A DNA stretch of 26,974 bases from a virus. The position numbers and the translations under genes were made by a program. The stretch spans positions 1-26,974 of the IMG/VR virus record IMGVR_UViG_3300008339_000396. One strand, given 5' to 3'. Positions within the stretch are counted from its first letter, which is position 1, and each line of letters starts with the position of its first letter. Shown one piece after another: positions 1-25,801 of the stretch. The notes beneath the pieces are model-generated. The model saw only the letters and a list, made by a program, of their open reading frames with translations, ran no database searches and was not told the origin of the DNA.

Positions 1-2882
1 ACGTTAAATGTTCCTTGAACGTGTTGTGCTCTACCTGCTGCAATTGTTCCTTCACCTTCAGCATGCGAATAATATCCTGATGCTGTTGTTTGATAACCTT
101 CAGCGTGAGAACCAGGTCCAGATGCTGTTGTCGCTTGTCCTTCAGCGTGAGAATATAATCCAGATGCGATTGTTGAAGCACCTTCAGCGTGAGAATATAA
201 TCCAGATGCCGTTGTATTATAACCTTCAGCGTGAGAATAATATCCAGATGCCGTTGTTAAATATCCTTCAGCGTGAGAATAATTTCCTAATGCCGTTGTT
301 GCATAACCTTCAGCGTGAGACATATCACCAACAGAAGTTGTATTAAATCCTTCAGCGTGAGAACCAACACCAATTGCATAACCTCCAGCAAAATCATTAG
401 CTTGATCTCCACCTTCTGCGTGAGAGTTAACACCTTCAGCTATTGTTTTGTATCCTTCAGCGTGAGAAGCATATCCTGATGCCGTTGTTGTATTACCTTC
501 AGCGTGAGAAACATATCCGGACGCCGTTGTTGATCTACCTTCAGCGTGAGAATAATTTCCAGATGCCGTTGTGTAATAACCTTCAGCGTGAGAACCTAAA
601 CCAACAGAAGTCGTCTGAATACCTTCAGCGTGAGAACCATACCCGGAGGCTGTTGTAGATGAACCTTCAGCGTGAGAATAATTTCCAGATGCAGTTGTAG
701 AATTACCTTCAGCGTGAGAACTTTGACCCAATGCCGTTGTGTAATTACCTTCAGCGTGAGAATAATTTCCAGATGCCGTTGTCTGAATACCTTCGGCGTG
801 AGAAGCACTACCTATAGCTACTGAGTAATTACCTTCAGCGTGAGAACCATTACCAACAGAAGTTGTCTGAATACCTTCAGCGTGTGAACTTTGACCCAAT
901 GCCGTTGTTCCAATACCTTCAGCATGAGAATAATATGCGGATGCTGTCGTTAAAGAACCTTCAACGTGAGAATGATATCCAGATGCCGTTGTTAATCTAC
1001 CCTCAGCGTGAGAATAATTTCCAGATGCCGTTGTTCCTTCACCTTCAGCGTGAGAATAATTTCCAGACGCAACGGTATTATAACCTGACGCAGTTGAATT
1101 TAAACCACTTGCCGTTGAACCAGTTGTTCCAAGAACGATTGAACCCTCAAATGTTCTGGTACCACCACTATTTGCTGCAACAACTTGTTTTAACTCAAGT
1201 TTGTTATCACCATTTACAATTACGGTAACACCATCAGCATCAGCAAGACCATCAATTTCATTTTCTAATGATGTGTCAGCACTTGCTCTTACACTTTCTT
1301 CAGTTGAAACTCTTGAATCCAATGATCCTTCCGCACTTTCTGCTCTTGAAGTTTCAGAAGAAACTTTTGAATCTAATGAGCCTTCAGCAGATTCTGCTCT
1401 TGAAGTTTCCGTAGAAACTTTTGAATCTAATGAACCTTCAGCTGACTCAGCTCTACTAACTTCTTGAGAAATTAAAGCTTCAAGTGAATCGTCACCTGAT
1501 TCGTTACTTGAAATTCTCGCAGATAATGAATCTTCAGCTGACTCCGCTCTTGAAGTTTCTGTAGATACTTTACTGTCTAAAGAACTATCAGCAGATTCTC
1601 TGTTTGAAACCTCAGTAGAAATATCAGATGAAATCTTAGAATCCAATGAACCTTCAACACTTTCAGCTCTTGACGTTTCGTTAGAAACTTTTGAATCTAA
1701 TGAAGTTTCAGCTGAATCTCTTTTACTTTCTTCAGTTGAAATTCTGGACTCAAGCGAATCTTCAGTACTTTCCGCTCTTGATGTTTCTGTAGAAACTTTT
1801 GAATCCAAAGAACCTTCAGCGGATTCCGCTCTACTAACTTCTTGAGAAATTAAAGCTTCAAGTGAATCATCACCAGATTCGTTTTGAGAAATTCTAGCAG
1901 ATAATGAATCTTCAGCAGATTCTGCTCTACTTGTTTCAGAAGATACTTTACTGTCTAATGAACCTTCAGCAGATTCTGCTCTTGAAATCTCGTTAGAAAC
2001 TTTTGAATCCAATGAACCTTCAGTAGATTCTGCCCTTGAAGTCTCGTTAGAAACTTTTGAATCTAATGATCCTTCAGCACTTTCAGCTCTACTTGTTTCG
2101 TTAGAAACTTTTGAATCCAAAGAACTATCAGCAGATTCTCTGTTTGAAGTTTCAGAAGAAACTTTTGAATCCAAAGAACTATCAGCAGATGCTCTGTTAC
2201 TTTCTTCAGTAGATACTCTAGAATCTAATGAACCTTCAGCAGATTCTGCTCTTGATGTTTCTTGAGAAATCAACGCTTCCAATGAATCATCACCTGATTC
2301 GTTACTTGAAATTCTTGCAGATAATGAATCTTCAGCAGACTCAGCTCTACTTGTTTCGTTAGAAACTTTTGCATCCAATGAATCGTCACCAGAAACTCTG
2401 TTTGAAATCTCAGCAGAAATTTCAGAAGAAATTTTTGAATCTAATGATCCTTCAGCACTTTCAGCTCTTGAAGTTTCAGTTGAAACTTTTGCATCCAATG
2501 AATCGTCAGCAGATTCTCTTGTACTTTCTTCAACAGATACTCTGTCGGTTAATGAGCCTTCAGCCGATTCGGCTCTTGATACTTCAGACGATAAGTCTGC
2601 TTCAAGAGAATCATTACCTGATACTCTGTTTGAGATTTCAGTTGAAATCTCGGATGAAATTTTGTTATCCAATGAACCTTCAGCTGATGTTGCTCTGGAC
2701 GTTTCATTTGATACTTTCGCATCCAATGAAGCATCACCAGAGATTCTGCTAGAATCCTGACTGGATAAGGTTGAACTTAACTCCGCGATATCCGTAATTG
2801 TTAAACCGGATGGAGTTAAAATCGTTGCGTTCGTCAGCAATAAGTCGGACTGACGGTCTAATACAATTTTAGTTTCTGCCAT
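1..2882 (-). CDS. Giant phage tail fibre / receptor-binding protein, N-terminal 960 residues (C-terminus outside window)
   Basis: Likely a trimeric virion fibre or appendage. Reading from the ATG at 2882-2880, the frame stays open through every stretch I translated to the left window edge (960 codons). Residues 1-30 are a short unique N-terminus, possibly the virion attachment part. Residues about 35-540 are 18-residue repeats of the type AESAEGSLDSKVSNETSR, predicted helical and probably coiled coil. A hinge at about 541-590 contains DGVTVIVNGDNKLELKQVV. Residues about 594-942 are 14-residue repeats of the form SHAEG-xx-TTASG-xx, the YadA-head-like beta-roll common in phage fibres. The last residues in the window, near AGRAQHVQGTFN, resemble the segment that in other SHAEG proteins precedes a C-terminal autoproteolytic chaperone or peptidase domain; that domain is not visible here. 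Plus-strand ORFs in this stretch are antisense shadows of the repeats. Confidence 0.93.
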   Translation of the reverse strand, partial: MAETKIVLDRQSDLLLTNATILTPSGLTITDIAELSSTLSSQDSSRISGDASLDAKVSNETSRATSAEGSLDNKISSEISTEISNRVSGNDSLEADLSSEVSRAESAEGSLTDRVSVEESTRESADDSLDAKVSTETSRAESAEGSLDSKISSEISAEISNRVSGDDSLDAKVSNETSRAESAEDSLSARISSNESGDDSLEALISQETSRAESAEGSLDSRVSTEESNRASADSSLDSKVSSETSNRESADSSLDSKVSNETSRAESAEGSLDSKVSNETSRAESTEGSLDSKVSNEISRAESAEGSLDSKVSSETSRAESAEDSLSARISQNESGDDSLEALISQEVSRAESAEGSLDSKVSTETSRAESTEDSLESRISTEESKRDSAETSLDSKVSNETSRAESVEGSLDSKISSDISTEVSNRESADSSLDSKVSTETSRAESAEDSLSARISSNESGDDSLEALISQEVSRAESAEGSLDSKVSTETSRAESAEGSLDSKVSSETSRAESAEGSLDSRVSTEESVRASADTSLENEIDGLADADGVTVIVNGDNKLELKQVVAANSGGTRTFEGSIVLGTTGSTASGLNSTASGYNTVASGNYSHAEGEGTTASGNYSHAEGRLTTASGYHSHVEGSLTTASAYYSHAEGIGTTALGQSSHAEGIQTTSVGNGSHAEGNYSVAIGSASHAEGIQTTASGNYSHAEGNYTTALGQSSHAEGNSTTASGNYSHAEGSSTTASGYGSHAEGIQTTSVGLGSHAEGYYTTASGNYSHAEGRSTTASGYVSHAEGNTTTASGYASHAEGYKTIAEGVNSHAEGGDQANDFAGGYAIGVGSHAEGFNTTSVGDMSHAEGYATTALGNYSHAEGYLTTASGYYSHAEGYNTTASGLYSHAEGASTIASGLYSHAEGQATTASGPGSHAEGYQTTASGYYSHAEGEGTIAAGRAQHVQGTFN
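50..1090 (-). repeat. 42-bp tandem coding repeats (SHAEG/TTASG beta-roll)
   Basis: About two dozen copies of a 42-bp unit, each encoding 14 residues with the core SHAEG..TTASG. Copies vary mainly at the two variable dipeptides. One stretch near 360-430 is diverged (ANDFAGGYAIG-like). Each unit would form one turn of a left-handed beta-roll. Confidence 0.9.
1265..2770 (-). repeat. 54-bp tandem coding repeats (18-residue helical repeat)
   Basis: Imperfect 54-bp units encode 18-residue repeats (pattern SAEGSLDSKVSNETSRAE), with occasional longer variants such as SARISSNESGDDSLEALIS. Eighteen residues is one heptad plus one hendecad, or exactly five turns at 3.6 residues per turn, which would give a nearly straight helical bundle. 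The unit length was counted directly in the sequence at about 1974-2030; the structural reading is inference. Confidence 0.85.
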
Positions 2883-9862: not shown

Positions 9863-10330
9863 ATGAAAGGAAGATTAATAAAAACGGATGTAAATTATAT
9901 TCTTGAAGATGATAAAGGGGTTGTTATTGCATCAACATCTTTAAAGAAAGAAGGATTATCGTTATCACTCAAAAACTGTCAAGCAATTGAGAAAGGATAT
10001 GATTTGGATGAGTTGGCTAAAATAGAATATCCTATTTGTGAAGTATGGAATGATGAAGAAGCACTTATTAGAGAACTTGCTTTTAAAAAAGGCTTCCAAA
10101 AAGCACTTGAGTTGATGGGTCATAAGATGTTTAGTGAGGAACAATTAAGAGAAGCGTTTTTCCATGTACAAAATGAACCCACTTTTGATGTTTTTAAACA
10201 ATCACTACAACAAACTGAATGGGATGTTGAGATTGAGACTGTTCCGGCACTTTCAAATAATGGTAATGTTTATTATGGTGATATTCCAAAACTTGATGAA
10301 GATGGTTGTTTAATTTTAAAAAGAATATAA
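9863..10330 (+). CDS. Conserved Bacteroidetes-phage protein, unknown
   Basis: 155 residues. The segments MKGRLIKT, LSLKNCQAIEKGYDLDELA, EEALIRELAFKKGFQKALELMGHKMFSEEQLREAF, TEWDVEIET and the C-terminal PKLDEDGCLILKRI follow a layout I recognise from many small proteins of Bacteroidetes phages with no assigned function. The N-terminal part is a small beta sheet, the middle is helical and the acidic linker is variable. First gene of a long plus-strand block, with a very short leader. Confidence 0.85.
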   Translation: MKGRLIKTDVNYILEDDKGVVIASTSLKKEGLSLSLKNCQAIEKGYDLDELAKIEYPICEVWNDEEALIRELAFKKGFQKALELMGHKMFSEEQLREAFFHVQNEPTFDVFKQSLQQTEWDVEIETVPALSNNGNVYYGDIPKLDEDGCLILKRI

Positions 10331-10572: not shown

Positions 10573-10886
10573 TGGAAAACAGAAAATACCCAGTAGGTGG
10601 ATTTGCACCTGGAAACTATATGTGTGAGTGTGTCACCTGTAAACACGATTTCTTAGGTGATAAATTAGCAGTACAATGCGAAACTTGTGCTATTGAAATG
10701 GTTAAAACAAAAATTGAGGTTGCCGAAAATGGTGGTATTGAAATAGTACATGACTATTTACCGGGGTTTATAGAACAATTTGGTGACGGACCTCTTGGTG
10801 AACTAGACCCAAATGAATGGACCGCACTTGATTTTTTGGAATGGTTAAAAATTAATAATTTTAAAATAATAAAAGATGTCAGATAA
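10572..10886 (+). CDS. Phage zinc-binding protein (two CxxC knuckles)
   Basis: 104 residues. FAPGNYMCECVTC..FLGDKLAVQCETCA contains C20xxC23 and C36xxC39 (plus C18), a four-Cys zinc ribbon of a kind that recurs in phages infecting Bacteroidetes and other hosts. The C-terminal half is acidic and ends in a helix (EWTALDFLEWLKINN). It probably binds nucleic acid or a protein through the knuckle, but no function is established. It lies between two paralogous genes. Confidence 0.8.
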   Translation: MENRKYPVGGFAPGNYMCECVTCKHDFLGDKLAVQCETCAIEMVKTKIEVAENGGIEIVHDYLPGFIEQFGDGPLGELDPNEWTALDFLEWLKINNFKIIKDVR

Positions 10887-11106
10887 TTTTAAAACAAAAA
10901 AGTGGATTGAAAAAGTAATTAAATCCTGTCAAAATTGGGAACAACTAACAACTTGTGAAAAACTGATATCCAATTTCAAAAACCAAATGATTAACAAAGG
11001 TTACGACAATATGTTGGCCTTACCATTCATATCGGATTTGGATTATAAAGTTAAATTAAAAAGAAACGAACTTATTGAATCAAAAAACTTGATTTTAAAC
11101 AATTAA
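10876..11106 (+). CDS. Small phage protein, paralogue of 10333-10572
   Basis: 76 residues. Shares the helical core KWIEKVI-x-SC...EKLISNF-x-x-QM with the gene at 10333 on the far side of the zinc-binding gene. Overlaps the upstream gene by 11 bases. The diverged C-terminus (ALPFISDLDYKVKLKRNELIES) still has the spacing of its paralogue. Function unknown. Confidence 0.75.
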   Translation: MSDNFKTKKWIEKVIKSCQNWEQLTTCEKLISNFKNQMINKGYDNMLALPFISDLDYKVKLKRNELIESKNLILNN

Positions 11107-11108
11107 AA

Positions 11109-11708
11109 ATGATTGACAACCTTGAACTTATTAAACCTTTATTAAATTTCTCAGAACCCGGAGATTTCTATTACTGTCTTATTTTAAAAAGAAAGAAAGA
11201 TCAACCAGAAGGAGAACGAGATAATCACCAATCAGTAAGAACAATTAAAACTTATTGTATTGAATCCGTTGAATATCTTGAAAAACGTTATGAAGAAATC
11301 AAACAACTTTGTGAGTTTTTTAAAGCCAGAGCTTATGTTCAGGTTCAAAAACAAAACCACAAAGATGTGTCATTAAATATGATGGTCGCATTAGCTCAGA
11401 GAATTCAGGACGGAAGTCATAAACAAGATGGTTTGTTTAGTTCGGTTGTTGGACAAATAAAAACACACGAAAAAAGGTGGGTAATTGATATTGATGAAAA
11501 AACTCCGGAATTGGTTAATCAAGTTATTGATTTCATTGATTCACTTGAACCGGTTGGTCCCAAAATTGAAACGTGTTTACCAACCAAAGATGGTTATCAT
11601 CTTATAACCAAAAGGTTTGACAACAAAACGTTTGGTGAGAAATATCCAGAAATTACAGTACAAAAAAAGAACCCAACTTTACTTTTTTTACCAAAATCAC
11701 TAAATTAA
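11109..11708 (+). CDS. Phage protein with a primase-polymerase-like (AEP) signature, tentative
   Basis: 199 residues. RWVIDIDE (123-130) is a hydrophobic strand ending in D-x-D, and TKDGYHLIT (159-167) gives a conserved G-x-H. Archaeo-eukaryotic primases have an hhDhD motif followed by an s-x-H motif with similar spacing and context, and phage genomes often carry such small relatives. The protein is shorter than full AEP enzymes, and I cannot place the third (hD) motif with confidence. It could instead be an unrelated small alpha/beta protein. It starts 2 bases after the previous gene. Confidence 0.5.
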   Translation: MIDNLELIKPLLNFSEPGDFYYCLILKRKKDQPEGERDNHQSVRTIKTYCIESVEYLEKRYEEIKQLCEFFKARAYVQVQKQNHKDVSLNMMVALAQRIQDGSHKQDGLFSSVVGQIKTHEKRWVIDIDEKTPELVNQVIDFIDSLEPVGPKIETCLPTKDGYHLITKRFDNKTFGEKYPEITVQKKNPTLLFLPKSLN

Positions 11709-11713
11709 AAATT

Positions 11714-11896
11714 ATGAATAATATGTTTGATCCCAATACGTTAAAGAACCTTCAACAGATGATGAATGGTTTAACAAACTTTACACAACAACCGGCAATT
11801 GATTTTAAAACAATCAAAAAATTAATCCTAATAGTTGTGTTATCATTATTTTTATCCGGATTTGGTGTTGGTTTATTAATTGGGTTATTATTTTAA
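11714..11896 (+). CDS. Small C-terminally membrane-anchored protein
   Basis: 60 residues. A polar Asn/Gln-rich N-terminus (MNNMFDPNTLKNLQQMMNG) is followed by one hydrophobic helix (about 38-60; LILIVVLSLFLSGFGVGLLI) that ends at the stop codon, so it is probably a tail-anchored inner membrane protein. Function unknown. Confidence 0.6.
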   Translation: MNNMFDPNTLKNLQQMMNGLTNFTQQPAIDFKTIKKLILIVVLSLFLSGFGVGLLIGLLF

Positions 11897-11900
11897 TATT

Positions 11901-12002
11901 ATGTTGAAATTATTATTAATTGGTTGGACTATTAGTTCATTATTTGTTATTAATTTAACAATCCAATATTTTTACGACGAATATAAAAACAGAAAAAAAT
12001 AG
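11901..12002 (+). CDS. Tiny membrane protein (33 residues)
   Basis: A short gene. Hydrophobic helix LLLIGWTISSLFVINLTI, then a charged tail (YFYDEYKNRKK). It fits between its neighbours with 4- and 2-base gaps, the packing typical of real genes here. Function unknown. Confidence 0.5.
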   Translation: MLKLLLIGWTISSLFVINLTIQYFYDEYKNRKK

Positions 12003-12004
12003 AT

Positions 12005-12238
12005 ATGACAGAATACATCCATTACCCTTTACCGGGAGAAAAGTACCAACACTATAAAGGAGGTACATATGAGGTGATTTGTTTGGCAAATCACACAGAT
12101 AATAATGAAGCATTGGTAATTTACAAATCATTATCTTTTGGTAGTACACACGCTAGACCATTAAAAGAGTGGATTGAAATTATTGGAAATGAAAAAGCGG
12201 GAACAACGTACCCATTACCAAGATTTACAAAAATATGA
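12005..12238 (+). CDS. DUF1653-like protein
   Basis: 77 residues. GEKYQHYKGGTYEVICLANHTDNNEALVIYKSL...ARPLKEW matches the DUF1653 pattern (YxHYKGxxYEV..A.HSE..E.LVVY..L....ARP..MF), a small SH3-like beta barrel of unknown function widespread in bacteria and phages. The usual C-terminal MFxE is replaced by EWIE. It overlaps the next gene by ATGA. Confidence 0.85.
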   Translation: MTEYIHYPLPGEKYQHYKGGTYEVICLANHTDNNEALVIYKSLSFGSTHARPLKEWIEIIGNEKAGTTYPLPRFTKI

Positions 12239-15093: not shown

Positions 15094-15321
15094 ATGAGTG
15101 AACAAATTAAAATAGAAATTTCCTTTACTATGGAGGAAATGGAGAACTTCCTTTTATACAACTACCCAACAAATTATCACTGGAAAGATAGGGTTAAGAA
15201 AGATGTAATGGTGTACGGTAACGATATTGTTGTTGAAGACATAAAAGAAGAGTTTGTTAAGTGTTTCAAGGAAACATTATTGAGTCAAAGACTTAATTCA
15301 AGACCATCAATATACAAATAA
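15094..15321 (+). CDS. Small phage protein, unknown
   Basis: 75 residues. IKIEISFTMEEMENFLLYNYP is a strand and helix, then YHWKDRVKKDVMVYGNDIVVEDIKEEFVKCFKETLL. Predicted alpha/beta with a basic patch. Ten bases after the previous gene. No recognised motif. Confidence 0.55.
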   Translation: MSEQIKIEISFTMEEMENFLLYNYPTNYHWKDRVKKDVMVYGNDIVVEDIKEEFVKCFKETLLSQRLNSRPSIYK

Positions 15322-15329
15322 AATAAAAG

Positions 15330-15512
15330 ATGAATAAAGAAACAAAATTTAAAGTGGGAGACAAGGCTCACAAACCAAAAGGTTATAAATTTCCTTGTAC
15401 AATTGTAGGTGTATTTGAAACTATTGTTGGTGAAGTACGGGTGATTGGTGAAATGGATGAATATGGATTATTACATATTTTTAACGAAAATCAATTGGAA
15501 CATTATGAATAA
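15330..15512 (+). CDS. Small SH3-like protein, copy A of a recent duplication
   Basis: 60 residues. FKVGDKAHKPKGYKFPCTIVGVFETIVGEVRVIGEMDEYGLLHIFNENQLE is a five-strand barrel of the KOW/SH3-like kind that is frequent in phages. The gene at 16348 encodes nearly the same protein; the first 77 bases are identical and only a handful of substitutions follow. It overlaps the next gene by 8 bases. Probably binds nucleic acid or a protein; no direct evidence. Confidence 0.75.
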   Translation: MNKETKFKVGDKAHKPKGYKFPCTIVGVFETIVGEVRVIGEMDEYGLLHIFNENQLEHYE

Positions 15513-15864
15513 AGAACAACAAGAATTATTGGACGAATGTTATAAAAACTATTGGGGGAAAGTGTCTGTTAATAATGAAGAAGATTGTTTAGTTAAACAA
15601 GAAGAAGGATCACTTCTAAAAGAAGTAAGAGTTCTTTATCAACAAGAATTTATCAACAAATGTAAAACTGATATTGAGTTCTCTGAAAAGTGGGGATTAA
15701 AGATTGAAGAACGAGAGCTGAGTTTGGAAGAGAGATGTGGTATTCAAATAAACAGAAATGATTATCAATCATACTACACAAAAGATGAGTTAGATGAAAA
15801 TAACATTCCAACCAAACTAATCACAGTTAATTATAAAAACGAAAAAATAGAAGTTTATGAGTAA
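15505..15864 (+). CDS. Acidic helical phage protein, unknown
   Basis: 119 residues from ATG 15505; the longer reading from 15445 lies within the SH3-like gene and is rejected. Predominantly acidic helix (EQQELLDECYKNYWGKVS; LKIEERELSLEERCGIQINRN), then a short beta end (TKLITVNYKNEKIEVYE). Overlaps both neighbours by 8 bases. No recognised family. Confidence 0.6.
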   Translation: MNKEQQELLDECYKNYWGKVSVNNEEDCLVKQEEGSLLKEVRVLYQQEFINKCKTDIEFSEKWGLKIEERELSLEERCGIQINRNDYQSYYTKDELDENNIPTKLITVNYKNEKIEVYE

Positions 15865-16319: not shown

Positions 16320-16347
16320 ACAAAAACAAAGATTAAAAAATTAAAAG

Positions 16348-16569
16348 ATGAATAAAGAAACAAAATTTAAAGTGGGAGACAAGGCTCACAAACCAAAAGG
16401 TTATAAATTTCCTTGTACAATTGTGGGTGTATTTGAAACAATTGCTGGTGAAGTCCGGGTGATTGGTGAAATGGATGAATACGGATTATTACATATTTTT
16501 AACGAAGACCAATTGGAAAAAGTTCCACAACAAACAAATGGTGAAGTTAAAACAAAGTGGGATTTATGA
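16348..16569 (+). CDS. Small SH3-like protein, copy B of a recent duplication
   Basis: 73 residues. Nearly identical to the 15330 gene up to residue 55 (differences such as V to A at residue 33 and NEN to NED), but with a different, longer C-terminus (KVPQQTNGEVKTKWDL). Its stop codon overlaps the thyA start (ATGA), so thyA translation is coupled to it. Confidence 0.75.
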   Translation: MNKETKFKVGDKAHKPKGYKFPCTIVGVFETIAGEVRVIGEMDEYGLLHIFNEDQLEKVPQQTNGEVKTKWDL

Positions 16570-17460: not shown

Positions 17461-18195
17461 ATGGTTGGTATTTATAGAATAAAAAATTTGGTAAATGGAA
17501 AGATTTATTATGGTTCGTCAAAAGACATTAAAAAAAGATGGAGAACACATAAAAATAAATTAAACAATGGAAAACATCATAATTCACCATTGCTTAACGC
17601 TTGGAACAAATACGGGGAAGAAAATTTTATTTTTGAAATTATTGAACTGTGTGATGAAAAAATTTTACTTGAAAGAGAACAACATTATTTAGATTTAAAA
17701 CCAGAATATAATATCGGAATTAAATCTAGTGGTGGTGACAACATAACAAAAAATCCAAATAAAAAAGATATTATTCGTAGAATTACAGAATCAATTAAAA
17801 AAAGATACAAATTGATGACAGACGAAGAAAAAAAAGAAATGTTTTCATTACCTATGGATAAGAATCCTAATTGGAAAGGTGGTATTAGTTATAAATATTG
17901 CGAATGTGGTGTAAAAATTAAACCAATAAATGATACTTGTTATAAATGTAGACCCAGAAGTGAAGATAAAAATCCATTTTTTGGTAAACAACACTCCGAG
18001 GAAACAAAAAAGAAATTAAGTGAAGGTAAGAAAGGAAAATATCACGGAGAACAAAATATACCTATAATAATTGATGATGTTGAATACAGATCGGCTGGTG
18101 AAGCATCCAAAACACTTAATATCCCAATGGTTACGATAAGGTGGAGAGTAATTAGTAAAAACAAAAAGTTTGAAAATTACAAATATAAAGAGTAA
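17461..18195 (+). CDS. Free-standing GIY-YIG homing endonuclease
   Basis: Cuts a homologous phage lacking the gene and so spreads itself. 244 residues. The catalytic GIY-YIG domain (1-90) has GIY (3-5), IYYG (15-18, for YIG), R26 and E71 or E73, which match the I-TevI catalytic Arg/Glu positions. A linker follows with a four-Cys zinc finger (C147, C149, C160, C163). There are NUMOD3-type DNA-binding motifs (NPNWKGG; NPFFGKQHSEETKKKLSEGKKG at 171-192) and a C-terminal HTH/NUMOD1-like segment (EYRSAGEASKTLNIPMVTIRWRV). The gene is intact. Its start abuts the hairpin at 17405-17460. Confidence 0.95.
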   Translation: MVGIYRIKNLVNGKIYYGSSKDIKKRWRTHKNKLNNGKHHNSPLLNAWNKYGEENFIFEIIELCDEKILLEREQHYLDLKPEYNIGIKSSGGDNITKNPNKKDIIRRITESIKKRYKLMTDEEKKEMFSLPMDKNPNWKGGISYKYCECGVKIKPINDTCYKCRPRSEDKNPFFGKQHSEETKKKLSEGKKGKYHGEQNIPIIIDDVEYRSAGEASKTLNIPMVTIRWRVISKNKKFENYKYKE

Positions 18196-18247
18196 GGGTT
18201 TACCCCCAATTTAACCAGAAGGTCTTTTCAAATCAAAATAGATTGTT

Positions 18248-18255
18248 TAAGTTTG
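18248..18255 (+). promoter_or_regulatory. -7 box TAAGTTTG
   Basis: Matches TAnnTTTG, 27 bases upstream of the ATG at 18283. No clear -33 TTG. It would restart transcription after the homing endonuclease. Confidence 0.45.
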
Positions 18256-18282
18256 TATAAGAAATTTAAAAAAAAGTAGAAT

Positions 18283-18570
18283 ATGAAAACAACAGTAGAA
18301 TGGTTTGTAATAGAATTAAGAAAACTAATTAAAGAATCAGAACTTAGTGATATGAGACCAAGTGAGTTTGATGCTAAAGAAGTGATGCTTATAGAACAAG
18401 CCAAAGAAATGGAAGAACAAGAACAAAAATCATTGTTAGAATGGATTAGAGATAATGCAGTTGAAGTAAGAGAAGGGTGGCATTGTGTAGGGCAGTATCC
18501 AGATAAAACATATACTGACGAAGAGATAATTGAAGTGTATCAAAAACAAAAAACCTTTAAATCAGAATAG
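18283..18570 (+). CDS. Conserved small phage protein (TVEWFVIEL family)
   Basis: 95 residues. MKTTVEWFVIELRKL..., IEQAKEMEEQE and the C-terminal KTYTDEEIIEVYQ form a pattern that recurs, often in several copies, in phages of Bacteroidetes; no function is known. The insert between the two blocks (LLEWIRDNAVEVREGWHCVGQYPD) is less usual. Mainly helical and acidic. Confidence 0.8.
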   Translation: MKTTVEWFVIELRKLIKESELSDMRPSEFDAKEVMLIEQAKEMEEQEQKSLLEWIRDNAVEVREGWHCVGQYPDKTYTDEEIIEVYQKQKTFKSE

Positions 18571-18571
18571 A

Positions 18572-18886
18572 ATGGAAGGAAAATACTTAATAACAACAGA
18601 CAAGTGGTTTACTGCGCCAGACGGTTTTTCGTATCAAGCAGTTTGGGGTGATGTTAAAATCGTGGAGGATTCGGTCCTTGGAGTTAAGACCAACAGAAAT
18701 AGTGCCAATTGGTATGCTGTTGTTGGTGGAAATGGTAAAGAAATTATAATTGCAGGATGTCAAATACATTATGCCGTTAAATCTGAATATAAACCATACA
18801 CTGGTAGAGTAAGGGATTGGCATACAGCAGACAACGGAAGTGTTGTTGAGAATGAAAGACCAACAAAAATTTATATTGCCGAATAA
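18572..18886 (+). CDS. Conserved phage protein, unknown
   Basis: 104 residues from ATG 18572. GKYLITTDKWFTAPDGFSYQAVWGDVKIVEDSVLG, NSANWYAVVG, IIIAGCQIHYAVKSE and the C-terminal PTKIYIAE match a recurring small phage protein with a beta-rich fold. Starts one base after the preceding stop and one base before the next gene. Function unknown. Confidence 0.8.
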   Translation: MEGKYLITTDKWFTAPDGFSYQAVWGDVKIVEDSVLGVKTNRNSANWYAVVGGNGKEIIIAGCQIHYAVKSEYKPYTGRVRDWHTADNGSVVENERPTKIYIAE

Positions 18887-21657: not shown

Positions 21658-22287
21658 TTATTTTATAACCACTTTTTCACCACCCCCCCTTATTAACCCA
21701 TTAACCGATTTTAGATCCGAAATTATAATTTTCCCATCCAAGTTTGAACCAACCCAAACGTATTTCTTTTTTCCAATGAACAAAACTTTAAAAAACTTGG
21801 ATGGTATTGGAATTTTACTACCACCCATATAGTTAACACCATCATAAATAACACCAGTTATAATAACCACATCTTTTTTGTATTTGGAAACAGAATCCTC
21901 AACTGATCTCTCCAACCTCATCCAAGAACCCCTATTAAATTTTGGTAACTGAGGTACCGAATTAAACAAACTAAACGATCTATAATTAAGTTCATTGTCA
22001 TATGATGTGATGTGTGATGGTGTTAAATGTCCCATATCATATCCGGATTTGTAGTAGTATTTTGTGTCGTACTTATCAACAAATACGTCCTGAAACCAGT
22101 TGTCACTTCTTTCTTTGTCAAGTTTTAAAAAATCAACATATTTTAGTTTGTGTATGGATATAAAAGTACACGTATCTTTTGTTAATATGAGTGTCATATC
22201 ACCGTGGTTGATTTTTATATTGTTTGTTTTAATTGTTTGACAAAAATAGTTAAGTGATATTAGTAGGAAGAATAATAATGTTCGCAT
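21658..22287 (-). CDS. Secreted DNA/RNA non-specific endonuclease (EndoG/NucA-like)
   Basis: 209 residues. The N-terminus (MRTLLFFLLISLNYFC) is a signal peptide, so it acts outside the cytoplasm. The beta-beta-alpha-metal core is visible. SGYDMGHLTPSH (81-92) aligns with the family DRGH motif, with M in place of R and catalytic H87 kept. NSVPQLPKFNRGSWMRLE (109-126) matches the metal-binding N and the following N-x-G-x-W...E. Such enzymes degrade DNA and RNA sequence-independently. As a phage-encoded exported nuclease it might scavenge nucleotides, block competing phage DNA or help lysis. Divergent from the adhesin operon and convergent with 20972. Confidence 0.85.
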   Translation of the reverse strand: MRTLLFFLLISLNYFCQTIKTNNIKINHGDMTLILTKDTCTFISIHKLKYVDFLKLDKERSDNWFQDVFVDKYDTKYYYKSGYDMGHLTPSHITSYDNELNYRSFSLFNSVPQLPKFNRGSWMRLERSVEDSVSKYKKDVVIITGVIYDGVNYMGGSKIPIPSKFFKVLFIGKKKYVWVGSNLDGKIIISDLKSVNGLIRGGGEKVVIK

Positions 22288-22360
22288 AATGAATCTTTAA
22301 AAATAAATATTAATCTTTAGTAAAGAAATAGTCGTTGGCTGTAAATATATGTCAAAATGT

Positions 22361-22391
22361 TTGGTCAGATTAAATATTATCATTATATTTG
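22361..22391 (+). promoter_or_regulatory. Bacteroidetes-type promoter of the adhesin operon
   Basis: TTG 22361-22363, 20-base spacer, TATATTTG 22384-22391. The ATG at 22409 is 17 bases further. It drives the three secreted-protein genes to 25035. Confidence 0.75.
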
Positions 22392-22408
22392 TTCATATTT
22401 ATTAATTG

Positions 22409-23878
22409 ATGAAGTATTTACTTTCCATATTGACACTTATTGTAACTTTTTTTACTGTAGCACAAATTACAGCAAACGGAAATTCTGGAGTTAGACCAAC
22501 GGTTTATACAAACGGATCACCAAACAATTCAATCTTTATTTGGTGTGGTGTAGGAAATAATGGCTCATTGACTTATACACCAACTTCCGGAACGGCACCT
22601 TATACATTCAACTGGTTCTCATATTCCAATACAACTTTTTCTTGGAATACATTAACCACCCAAAACGGCGCAACATCTACTTTAAATAATTTGTCTAACG
22701 GTGGTTATAGAATTGAGGTTTATTCATCAAACGGTACATTGGTTGGTTGTGATATTGCTTGGGTTTGGAATGTAAATAATCAAGTTACAGCCTCAAACAC
22801 ACAAGTTAGTTGTGGGTCAACAAACTTAATTGGAACCAATACAGTTACACCAACATCGTTTACTTATTATAATCCACCACCACCACAATCAATAATAAAC
22901 ACCAACACAACAATTAAAGTTTGTTTTACCGGAAATCACACTTGGGTTTCAGATTTGGGATTCTATTTAATTGGACCGGCTTCTTGTGGTAGCCCAGTGA
23001 TTACCTTATCACCAAATCCAGGATCCAATAGTCAAGGTAGTATTTGTAATGGTGGAAACAACTTCAATAACCTTTGTTTTACAAATGCGGCAAGTCCCAA
23101 TTTAAATGTATGTTCATCACCAACACCATTAACTGGAACTTATGATTCGTATGGACCAACTCCGGGAACCAATATTAATTTTTCACCACTTATTGGTTGT
23201 AACGCGGCACAAGGTGGTTGGAGAGTTCAGGTGTTTGATTGTATTTCATCCGATGTTGGTAAGTTAACTAATGCAAACATAACTTTTTCAAATTTAACAT
23301 CCATTTGTGGTTCACCAACAACCATAACTTATAGTTCAGGAACAATAAATTCAAACATAAATGATAATTCATGTTCACAAGCGACGGCATCCGTTTATCA
23401 GGTACCACCACCGACAAATTTAACAACACCAATAACAATAAATGGTACCACCACAATTCAATGGACAAGTAATCCATCGGCAACAATTGCAAATTCAACA
23501 AACCTTAATACAACGACAACAAACGTGACACAACAAACAACATTTACTTTAACTTCAACATTCAGTGTAGGTGGAACAAATGTTTGTGTTTCAACAGCTC
23601 AAACAACCTTTACACCAACACCATTAACCGCCAACTTTACGTTTGTTAATCCATCTTGCTTTGGTTTGTGTGACGGTTCGGCAACCGCAACGCCAACATC
23701 AGGAACTTTACCTTATATATATGTTTGGACACCAAGTGGTTCCACACAAACAATATCTAATTTATGTTCCGGAACATATAATGTAACGGTCACTGACGCT
23801 AATGGTTGTACTGTAAGTGGAAGTGTAACCTTAACGGACCCAAATCAGTTAATATTAACCCCAATAAACCATAATTAA
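22409..23878 (+). CDS. Secreted adhesin-like protein with P-domain and SprB repeat
   Basis: 489 residues from ATG 22409; an in-frame TTG at 22406 precedes it. Signal peptide ends at A-Q (FFTVAQ). Residues about 50-115 resemble a first SprB-type repeat ([15 protein letters not shown]...GGYRIEV). Residues about 130-300 look like a proprotein-convertase P-domain beta sandwich ([12 protein letters not shown]...[10 protein letters not shown]...[10 protein letters not shown]). A T/N/S-rich stretch follows. Residues about 415-475 are a clear SprB repeat ([20 protein letters not shown]...[15 protein letters not shown]). SprB repeats build the gliding adhesins of Flavobacteria. It has no T9SS sorting domain of its own and ends in LTPINHN. 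Confidence 0.85.
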
Positions 23879-23889
23879 ATCTAAACACC

Positions 23890-24465
23890 ATGAAAAAAGT
23901 AATTTTAATTTTAGCTCTTTTAGTATCAAGCTCTTTGTTCTCACAACTTGTAACAACAAACCCTGATACGGTCTGTTTCCAATCAACAACACTATCCACT
24001 TATACAGTACAAAATATCGGTTCGGGGACCTATACGTGGACAATACCAGGTTCAGCAACCCTAGTTTCTGGACAAGGAACAAACTCAATCCAAGTGGATT
24101 GGTCAGCAACACCAGCCGGTCTTATAAATAACGCCATATCTGTAACATATACTTCGGGTTCTGGATGTCAAGCTCAACCGGTAACATTAAACGTGTTGAT
24201 CTACCAATTCACACCAACTATTGCTGCTTTAGGTCCATTTTGTGAATCTGATCCTTGTGTTACTTTGGTTGGTTCACCGGTTGGTGGTACTTGGTCTGGA
24301 ACCGGAGTCTCTGGAAATCAATTTTGTCCAGATAACGTGGCAAACGGAACGAACGCAATTTCCAATGTGACATATACTGTAACAAATGGTGGATGTACGT
24401 TCTCAACTTCAACAACAGTACCAGTATTTGGTACACCAACTTTATCACCAATTCAACATAACTAA
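23890..24465 (+). CDS. Secreted PKD/Ig-like protein
   Basis: 191 residues. Signal peptide MKKVILILALLVSSSLFS before Q. The PKD-like N-terminal domain contains TYTWTIPGSATLVSGQGTNSIQVDWS. A second Cys-containing beta domain follows (CESDPCVTLVGSPVGGTWSGTGV), of the kind found in Bacteroidetes surface proteins. The C-terminus LSPIQHN closely resembles the LTPINHN end of the preceding protein. No sorting domain. Predicted export to periplasm or surface as part of the three-gene adhesin set. Confidence 0.8.
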   Translation: MKKVILILALLVSSSLFSQLVTTNPDTVCFQSTTLSTYTVQNIGSGTYTWTIPGSATLVSGQGTNSIQVDWSATPAGLINNAISVTYTSGSGCQAQPVTLNVLIYQFTPTIAALGPFCESDPCVTLVGSPVGGTWSGTGVSGNQFCPDNVANGTNAISNVTYTVTNGGCTFSTSTTVPVFGTPTLSPIQHN

Positions 24466-24468
24466 AAT

Positions 24469-25035
24469 ATGAAATTTATTTCATCCATATTGGTTTTAAT
24501 CATATGTTTTGTTTCTTCAGCACAAGATACACTTGAGATCTGTGCTGGGGAACCCAAAACGGTTAGCTATTTTGCCTCATCAACGAGTGATGGTGAAAAT
24601 ACCTGGAAGGTCAATGGTGAAACATTTATTGGTGATGAATTAACTTATACTTATACTCAAGGTGGTTTATACAATATAACTGTACGTAGAGAAAATTGGT
24701 TATGTTATGTTGAACAAACACTCCAAGTTTTTGTAAGTGAATGTCCAGGTGTTACTTTTTGGGTACCAAACACATTTACACCAGATGGTGACGAATTTAA
24801 TCAATATTTTGGCCCAGTAATGAATGAAGGATTTGATGTTGATGGTTATTCGTTTTTGATTTTTAACAGATGGGGTGAAACCATATTTAGTTCATCTGAC
24901 CCAAATGGAAAGTGGGATGGTATGTACAATAACGTTTTATGTCAATACGGAACTTATAGTTGGGTGTTAAGGTTTAATGTTAAAGGTGATGATGGTGTCA
25001 TTCAAAAATCAGGTAATGTTAATTTACTTCGTTGA
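24469..25035 (+). CDS. Secreted protein with T9SS type B (gliding-motility-associated, CHU_C) C-terminal domain
   Basis: 188 residues. Signal peptide ends at A-Q (VSSAQ, 15-19). Residues about 22-90 form a small PKD-like domain (TVSYFASSTSDGENTWKVNG...GGLYNITVRR). Residues 97-188 are the CHU_C/TIGR04131 sorting domain: FWVPNTFTPDGDEFNQYF, GFDVDGYSFLIFNRWGETIF, GKWDGMYNN..CQYGTYSWVLRF and the terminal GNVNLLR. In the family this domain directs passage through the type IX secretion system and retention at the surface. It starts 4 bases after the PKD gene. Its passenger is very short, which suggests it may carry the other two proteins. Confidence 0.9.
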   Translation: MKFISSILVLIICFVSSAQDTLEICAGEPKTVSYFASSTSDGENTWKVNGETFIGDELTYTYTQGGLYNITVRRENWLCYVEQTLQVFVSECPGVTFWVPNTFTPDGDEFNQYFGPVMNEGFDVDGYSFLIFNRWGETIFSSSDPNGKWDGMYNNVLCQYGTYSWVLRFNVKGDDGVIQKSGNVNLLR

Positions 25036-25038
25036 TTG

Positions 25039-25629
25039 TTAGTCCCACCACCATCTCATTCTTTCTTTTAAAATTTTAAACAATAAATTATGCGCTTTTT
25101 CTTGATTATGTTTTGAAACATAATGACATAAATCTCTTTTATTTAGATTGGGATTTTCTTTTAATATTTTACGGACACTTGATGGGTATTTTTTTAAAAA
25201 ATCATCATAAGTCTCACTTGAAACCTCTATATCTGCGGACCTAAGATTTTCATTACCTTCAACCGGTTTAAATACAACATCAGAGTCTTCATAATCAAGA
25301 TATTCAGTGTTGTAGTATTCGTCTTTAACTCTTTCAATTAGGTTTAAAACAATAGTCATATCACGATTATCTCTATCAACCTCCATATGACGATTTGCAT
25401 AGATAATTTCTTTTCTTTGAAATTCTATTTTCTTTTGAAGGATTGTAAAAATATACCAGTCATCCCAATCCTTATCTTTATATAAAGTTGGTATCCATCT
25501 AAAGATATTTTTTATACCTCCGATAAAGTATCTTATTCTCCAATTTGTGTTTCGCCATATGAATGGAAATACCCCCTTTCTATTCCAAGCGGATTCTTCA
25601 GGTATTGTTAGTTTCTTGTAATTTTTCAT
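25039..25629 (-). CDS. Conserved phage protein with GIKNIFRWIPTLYKDKDWDD motif
   Basis: 196 residues from ATG 25629; the upstream extension to 25656 includes the likely promoter (TATATTTA). FIGGIKNIFRWIPTLYKD and KDWDDWYIFTILQKKIEFQ are the hallmark of a recurring phage protein of unknown function in Bacteroidetes and T4-like phages. The middle has IERVKDEYYNTEYLDYEDSD. The C-terminal half (SVRKILKENPNLNKRDLCHYVSKHNQEKAHNLLFKIL) is helical and basic. Ends 4 bases from the convergent adhesin operon. Confidence 0.8.
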   Translation of the reverse strand: MKNYKKLTIPEESAWNRKGVFPFIWRNTNWRIRYFIGGIKNIFRWIPTLYKDKDWDDWYIFTILQKKIEFQRKEIIYANRHMEVDRDNRDMTIVLNLIERVKDEYYNTEYLDYEDSDVVFKPVEGNENLRSADIEVSSETYDDFLKKYPSSVRKILKENPNLNKRDLCHYVSKHNQEKAHNLLFKILKERMRWWWD

Positions 25630-25801
25630 TGTATTGTAAATATAACGAAAAAACAACCAAAAAGTTAATAGTTAAACTCAAAAAAATCTCAAATAAATAA
25701 TGCCAATTTGTTTGTGTTAAGGAAACGTGGGTTCCAAACCACATAAATGAACCATATTTGTTCATAACTTCAATTAGTAGATATTTCAAAAAGTTTTTCA
25801 T
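25598..25801 (-). CDS. Possible small membrane protein
   Basis: 67 residues. One hydrophobic helix (LFEIFLSLTINFLVVFSLYL, about 36-55) preceded by an aromatic segment (KYGSFMWFGTHVSLTQTNWHY). It overlaps the start of the minus-strand gene at 25629 by 32 bases in a different frame. The lack of known relatives and the A/T-rich context make it uncertain. Confidence 0.4.
   Translation of the reverse strand: MKNFLKYLLIEVMNKYGSFMWFGTHVSLTQTNWHYLFEIFLSLTINFLVVFSLYLQYNEKLQETNNT

Follow-up and report, generated by a model that had tools for sequence, protein, structure and literature searches.

The window analysed here, an IMG/VR virus record of 26,974 bases, carries near its end three adjacent genes that we refer to as A, B, and C (Table 1). 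Its genes for an endolysin, a phage-type thymidylate synthase, and a homing endonuclease show that the window is phage DNA. It is almost entirely covered by two other contigs (68,669 and 19,226 bases) with 99.9-100% identity over the main aligned stretches, and no cultured phage near-identical to it was found. Nothing points to the marine origin that the initial annotation had presumed; every copy comes from uncultured metagenomic phages. The 68.7-kb contig, near-identical elsewhere, lacks window positions 9871-10090 and 15382-15516; the latter stretch sits inside a 185-bp direct repeat region (15316-15500 / 16335-16518, 95% identical). At the start of the window (3-2882, minus strand), a long repetitive fibre-like protein contains dozens of SHAEG motifs, which look like the head repeats of trimeric autotransporter adhesins. 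The divergent neighbour of the three genes (21658-22287, minus strand) encodes an exported DNA/RNA non-specific endonuclease (PF01223, E 7.8e-26).

Table 1 Features of the A-B-C locus, in window coordinates
Feature	Position	Strand	Remarks
Bacteroidetes-type promoter-like element, TTTG-N20-TATATTTG (-33/-7)	22360-22391	+	Pattern match
Gene A, putative "tip" passenger	22409-23878	+	ATG start; TTG at 22406 also possible
Layout of A			Signal peptide (to Ala18, Gln19 next), beta-rich region, SprB repeat, C-terminal tail
SprB repeat of A	23636-23737	+	PF13573, E 4e-9 for the protein
A tail LTPINHN, proposed donor strand for B	23855-23875	+	Extreme C-terminus of A
Gene B, putative "adapter"	23890-24465	+	Signal peptide, PKD_6, second Ig-like domain, C-terminal tail
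B tail LSPIQHN, proposed donor strand for C	24442-24462	+	C-terminus of B
Gene C, putative "carrier"	24469-25035	+	Signal peptide, incomplete PKD/Ig-like domain, type B T9SS sorting domain
CHU_C / TIGR04131 type B T9SS sorting domain of C	24763-25026	+	PF13585 and TIGR04131

Profile searches confirmed the domain series that had been read from the letters, namely an SprB repeat in A, PKD/Ig-like domains in B, and a PKD-like domain followed by a CHU_C/TIGR04131 domain in C. The SprB repeat, a mark of SprB-like gliding adhesins, scored 36.4 bits in A (PF13573, cut-off 28; best stretch residues 411-444), whereas the P-domain also assigned to this protein stayed below threshold (13.3 bits, cut-off 21). 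PKD_6 was detected in B with 38.7 bits (cut-off 25), and this Ig-like domain, the first of two in B, begins at strand B. For C, the sorting domain exceeded the cut-offs of both CHU_C (PF13585; 46.3 bits, cut-off 27) and TIGR04131 (36.4 bits, cut-off 35), while its PKD-like domain scored below threshold. In neither A nor B did the profile search detect CHU_C or TIGR04131; the sorting domain is confined to C, and A and B would not be classed as T9SS cargo by their sequence. SprB repeat and sorting domain do not share one polypeptide here but are distributed over three genes with their own signal peptides. UniProt already holds metagenomic copies of B and C, as phage proteins named "PKD-like" and "Gliding motility-associated, C-terminal domain".

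Each of the three proteins has its own signal peptide ending in A/S-Q, as originally noted, and this pattern is present in 55/61 relatives of A, 62/64 of B, and 64/65 of C, vs. 10/277 other ORFs. With regard to transcription, the "one good promoter" of the initial annotation stands as an element of the window and falls as a conserved feature: the full consensus was found upstream of 1/60 relatives only and is missing from 59/60 operons, so we rejected a conserved promoter for the operon. It is plausible, judging from the match, that the element works as the promoter of A-B-C in this phage. A sigma-70 scan of the region gave no sites in excess of shuffles. In 48/65 operons, the end of B overlaps the start of C by a single base and the two genes are read in different frames; B and C are therefore probably translationally coupled yet separate proteins. 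The same overlap implies separate translation, and read-through or frameshifting that would join A-B-C was rejected on this ground.

Relatives of B were located in 109 viral contigs and those of C in 227 (IMG/VR), and 80 of each were fetched. We obtained 65 distinct B-C pairs in IMG/VR contigs, nearly all with a third gene upstream whose type is variable. The co-occurrence of the trio is far above chance, and the possibility that it is peculiar to this one record does not hold, as dozens of diverged phage contigs carry it. Among the fetched sequences, a separate B stands beside 66 unique C proteins, and one fused ORF was seen in 37; these 37 phage proteins, including one from a 634-kb phage, hold the equivalents of B and C in a single polypeptide. 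In that phage (LR745206; 634,780 bases), a fused 732-aa ORF is colinear with the SprB part of A, with B, and with C (A403-486, B25-177, and C1-188 correspond to residues 315-400, 403-547, and 545-732, respectively). A tree of B plus C placed 63 split and 37 fused forms on opposite sides of one branch (support 100/99), and a tree of C only, built without the tails described below, gave the same partition with weaker support (84). Split and fused forms are partly paralogues, since some phages (G005, 436 kb; G009, 152 kb) carry both.

The surroundings of these genes show some further regularities. The fused adhesin gene lies directly behind tail sheath-like (MANFTTSPGVA..) and tail tube-like genes in L146, L150, L152, L155, L160, L167, and relatives; this location suggests late expression of the fused adhesin. 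A 205-aa gene of unknown function (..RMRWWWD; window 25039-25656, minus strand) borders split as well as fused adhesin genes in many phages. Two huge phages also encode minimal proteins of ~110-126 aa that consist of a signal peptide and a type B sorting domain with almost no passenger of their own (L013, LR756502, 1438-1788, minus strand; L014, LR745206, 1363-1743, plus strand).

The key feature of the system, which goes beyond the original observation, is a short C-terminal tail on A and B. All 65/65 unique B proteins end in [LI][STQ]PI[QS]H[ND], one of them beginning with I. Unique A proteins numbering 61 end in [LVI]G[PANSV]I.H[ND], with G in 59; the two tails that deviate at the G position include the LTPINHN of the window, and a further A has V for I, which brings the tail to 62/62 examined A proteins. 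The typical forms are [LVI]GPI[NS]HN for A and LSPIQHN for B, and I.H[ND] occurs in 0/37 fused proteins. We then searched 2.9 million IMG/VR contigs for exact DNA spellings of the tail plus stop and obtained 134 matches, 129 of which are in-frame ends of such genes. GPI[NS]HN-stop gave 52 matches (50 in-frame ends of passenger genes, nearly all directly upstream of B), and SPIQHN-stop gave 80 (77 ends of B genes, with C next wherever the contig extends far enough). The mixed type GPIQHN had 2 matches only, both of them ends of exported proteins of the same kind, and the A and B tails are thus separate, highly specific tags. We rejected an intein-like origin of the HN ends because the search for domains revealed none for splicing and because the tail shows a match to an Ig strand.

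This match was seen when the split and fused forms were aligned across their junctions. At the A/B junction, a fused example reads NLVDPPQVTLTPIVGSDTLCYNST, while in the window A ends in LTPINHN and mature B starts QLVTTNPDTVCFQS; the tail LTPINHN is homologous to the fused "LTPIVGSDTLC". Another pair, fused L167 (SLGPINGLDTICYLSS) vs. split L029 (VLGPINHN, then SQ|LSTTNPDTVCYQS), matches strand A residue by residue. The B/C junction has TVNPQPIILPITPSNEFFELCEGD in the fused form vs. GTPTLSPIQHN and QDTLEICAGE in the split one. At both junctions, the cut thus lies directly behind the opening strand of an Ig-like domain: the upstream protein keeps this strand, capped with His-Asn, and the downstream protein begins with what is left of the domain. 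Naming the tail "strand A" is our reading of the repeat layout. The layout is the anatomy that would be expected for donor-strand complementation in the order A, B, C. Colinear one-ORF homologues, separation on one branch of the tree, and passenger tails that correspond to the missing strand of the next subunit together lend strong support to the suggestion that an adhesin was split into a short T9SS carrier and two passengers.

Structure prediction is in line with this layout to a modest degree. AlphaFold2 was applied to B-C of the window as a single chain that reads through the intervening TAA (in frame here), and its alignment included rows from fused homologues; both choices favour the expected placement. 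Rows of mixed A, B, and C alignments were misplaced by MAFFT and were excluded from folding. The B-C model (mean pLDDT 88.4) has a pLDDT of 89 in the tail block (181-190) and a two-residue strand at Q189-H190, whereas the model of B alone (pLDDT 89.7) has 84 in the tail and no strand in it. The gain of a tail strand with C present agrees with pairing of the tail to C, the effect being a small one, i.e., a two-residue bridge. In the model, C forms its own first strand (residues 211-217), and complementation of C by the B tail may therefore be partial. The HN cap itself falls outside what strand complementation explains. A Foldseek comparison with the PDB returned generic Ig chains only.

The tail is retained where the protein that bears it changes. 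Among 646 operon pairs in which B is at least 65% identical, the A proteins of 191 align over less than half their length, and A proteins range from roughly 190 to 630 aa with differing recognisable domains. The A position is thus exchangeable, as far as these comparisons of sequence go. In addition, two further tail-bearing exported proteins are encoded on a phage contig of 190 kb that has just one CHU_C gene (L307, positions 76001-96000). One is a 455-aa PKD protein that ends in SISHN and directly follows C (10648-12015, minus strand), and the other is an orphan propeller-like protein of 384 aa that ends in IGPIQHN, several kilobases from the carrier (17679-18833, minus strand). Because the latter gene lies away from the only carrier of the contig, it is possible that one carrier serves several passengers.

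The split form appears to belong to phages. In 61 Bacteroidota loci, relatives of B were mostly internal domains of large proteins, and among the 1,788 ORFs of these loci tail endings are confined to L182, a 7-kb Flavobacteriales MAG contig whose DNA resembles that of phages. L182 (3185-6540) has a B gene as well as a gene for a tail-bearing A of 927 aa with CUB, PKD, and P-domain, and is probably a phage contig that was binned with a candidate host. A bacterial origin of the split form was rejected on these grounds. The idea that the locus is a chance fragment of a bacterial one fails for the same reasons and because the tail spelling never ends an ORF in 399 Flavobacteriales genomes. PorP/SprF genes are commonly, not universally, encoded alongside type B cargo. 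The 13 phage records searched yielded none, against 7, 21, and 13 in the three Bacteroidota genomes that served as a positive control, and a host shuttle would hence be needed.

We propose that A, B, and C would each be exported to the host periplasm by their own signal peptides. The tail would be the detached strand A of an Ig/PKD-like domain whose remainder starts the next protein, and by its insertion the A tail (GPI[NS]HN type) would complete B and the B tail (SPIQHN type) would complete C. The linked A-B-C complex would then cross the outer membrane by way of the host translocon plus a host PorP/SprF shuttle, and would be anchored via the type B sorting domain of C. In such a complex, the variable A would serve as an exchangeable adhesin tip on a constant adapter (B) and carrier (C), and its effect at the surface of the infected cell would most likely be altered adhesion or the exclusion of further phages. 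The sequences establish the split, the order of the genes, the tails with their homology to strand A, and the swapping of A; strand insertion, joint translocation, surface display, and biological role belong to the proposal. We consider it moderately probable that the operon encodes a three-piece T9SS cargo of this kind, strand-linked on the host surface. That the tails constitute a trans-acting T9SS export tag, by which swappable passengers free of a sorting domain ride a separate carrier, is a serious possibility that we advance tentatively. It weighs against the proposal that, to our knowledge, no T9SS cargo lacking a sorting domain has been demonstrated.

It is also conceivable, if unlikely, that A and B remain periplasmic (e.g., as a barrier to incoming DNA) and that only C is surface exposed. 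This would be consistent with the lack of a recognised T9SS sorting domain in A and B, and phage exclusion proteins that act in the periplasm are known in general. Nonetheless, B and C form one polypeptide with the sorting domain in the 37 fused phage proteins, and the split copies have retained a strict order and close spacing.

We regard as quite unlikely a reading in which the tail itself is a minimal T9SS (or other outer-membrane) sorting signal and A and B are exported independently of C. The tail does have the look of a signal, being short, invariant, at the extreme C-terminus, and restricted to exported proteins. Its homology to an internal Ig strand of the fused relatives and the systematic difference between A and B tails argue otherwise, and the type B signals described in the literature depend on a complete C-terminal domain plus their cognate shuttle (PMC12618676). 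Furthermore, the tail spelling was matched once in 399 Flavobacteriales genomes, not at an ORF end, and a reversed control pattern had about as many or more matches; the tail was rejected as a bacterial signal for this reason, and no host reader of it is known.

We think it improbable that the three proteins are virion components (decoration or fibre proteins). A weak PHROG match of A to a Hoc-like head decoration protein (E 0.0013) and the tail sheath-/tube-like genes that adjoin some fused copies hint in this direction, but the signal peptides of nearly all relatives would divert the proteins from virion assembly in the cytoplasm, and C has a specific T9SS domain above cut-off. That the split arose by neutral decay of a fused adhesin or by operon rearrangement, with no mechanism for the tail, is very improbable even though related phages, and at times the very same genome, have fused forms, given that tail, signal peptides, and spacing are kept in dozens of diverged operons and that tail positions are invariant though the A proteins get exchanged.

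The reading that we favour, a strand-linked three-piece cargo, shares parts with several known systems. Phage-encoded T9SS cargo has been described in Cryophage, in which three variable genes have type A sorting domains and use of the host system is presumed (PMC7468147); there, each gene has its own sorting domain, whereas here tailed passengers without one accompany a single type B carrier. The SprB repeat, PKD/Ig modules, and type B sorting domain resemble those of SprB and other adhesins with type B C-terminal domains (PMC9143113, PMC12618676), which differ from our three proteins in being single polypeptides, commonly with the cognate shuttle next door. Type B substrates require PorP/SprF partners (PMC12618676, PMC9143113), and there are orphan type B cargos whose shuttle lies at a distance (PMC12618676). 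Donor-strand complementation is established in chaperone-usher pili and has been proposed for Mfa/FimA fimbriae (PMC4789730). The proposed likeness lies in a strand-lacking Ig-like acceptor that is completed by its neighbour and in the logic of tip, adapter, and anchor; in our case, a C-terminal strand A capped with HN would act as donor, export would be through the T9SS with no usher or chaperone identified, and the product would be a short defined chain instead of a polymer. The fused adhesin of phages (732 aa in LR745206; also L123, L126, and others) has the same SprB-B-C domain order in one ORF; it has no tails and one signal peptide, and stands on the other side of the tree from the split form. 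A limited literature search, which is weak evidence, found no description of the operon, the tails, or T9SS passengers free of a sorting domain. As far as we could find, phage T9SS cargo (type A) is known and tail-tagged passengers without a sorting domain are apparently new.

Our results indicate that a three-way split surface adhesin is carried by a large family of phages, all uncultured, that infect bacteria of the Bacteroidetes type, and the tail is a near-perfect sequence marker with which such phages and their passengers can be found. If the proposed mechanism is true, T9SS cargo would need no sorting domain of its own, as a short tail would hitch any passenger to a separate carrier. This would offer a testable handle on the passage of folded complexes through the T9SS translocon as well as a compact surface-display tag for Bacteroidota. 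It would also mean that phages possess a modular device with interchangeable parts for remodelling the Bacteroidota cell surface.
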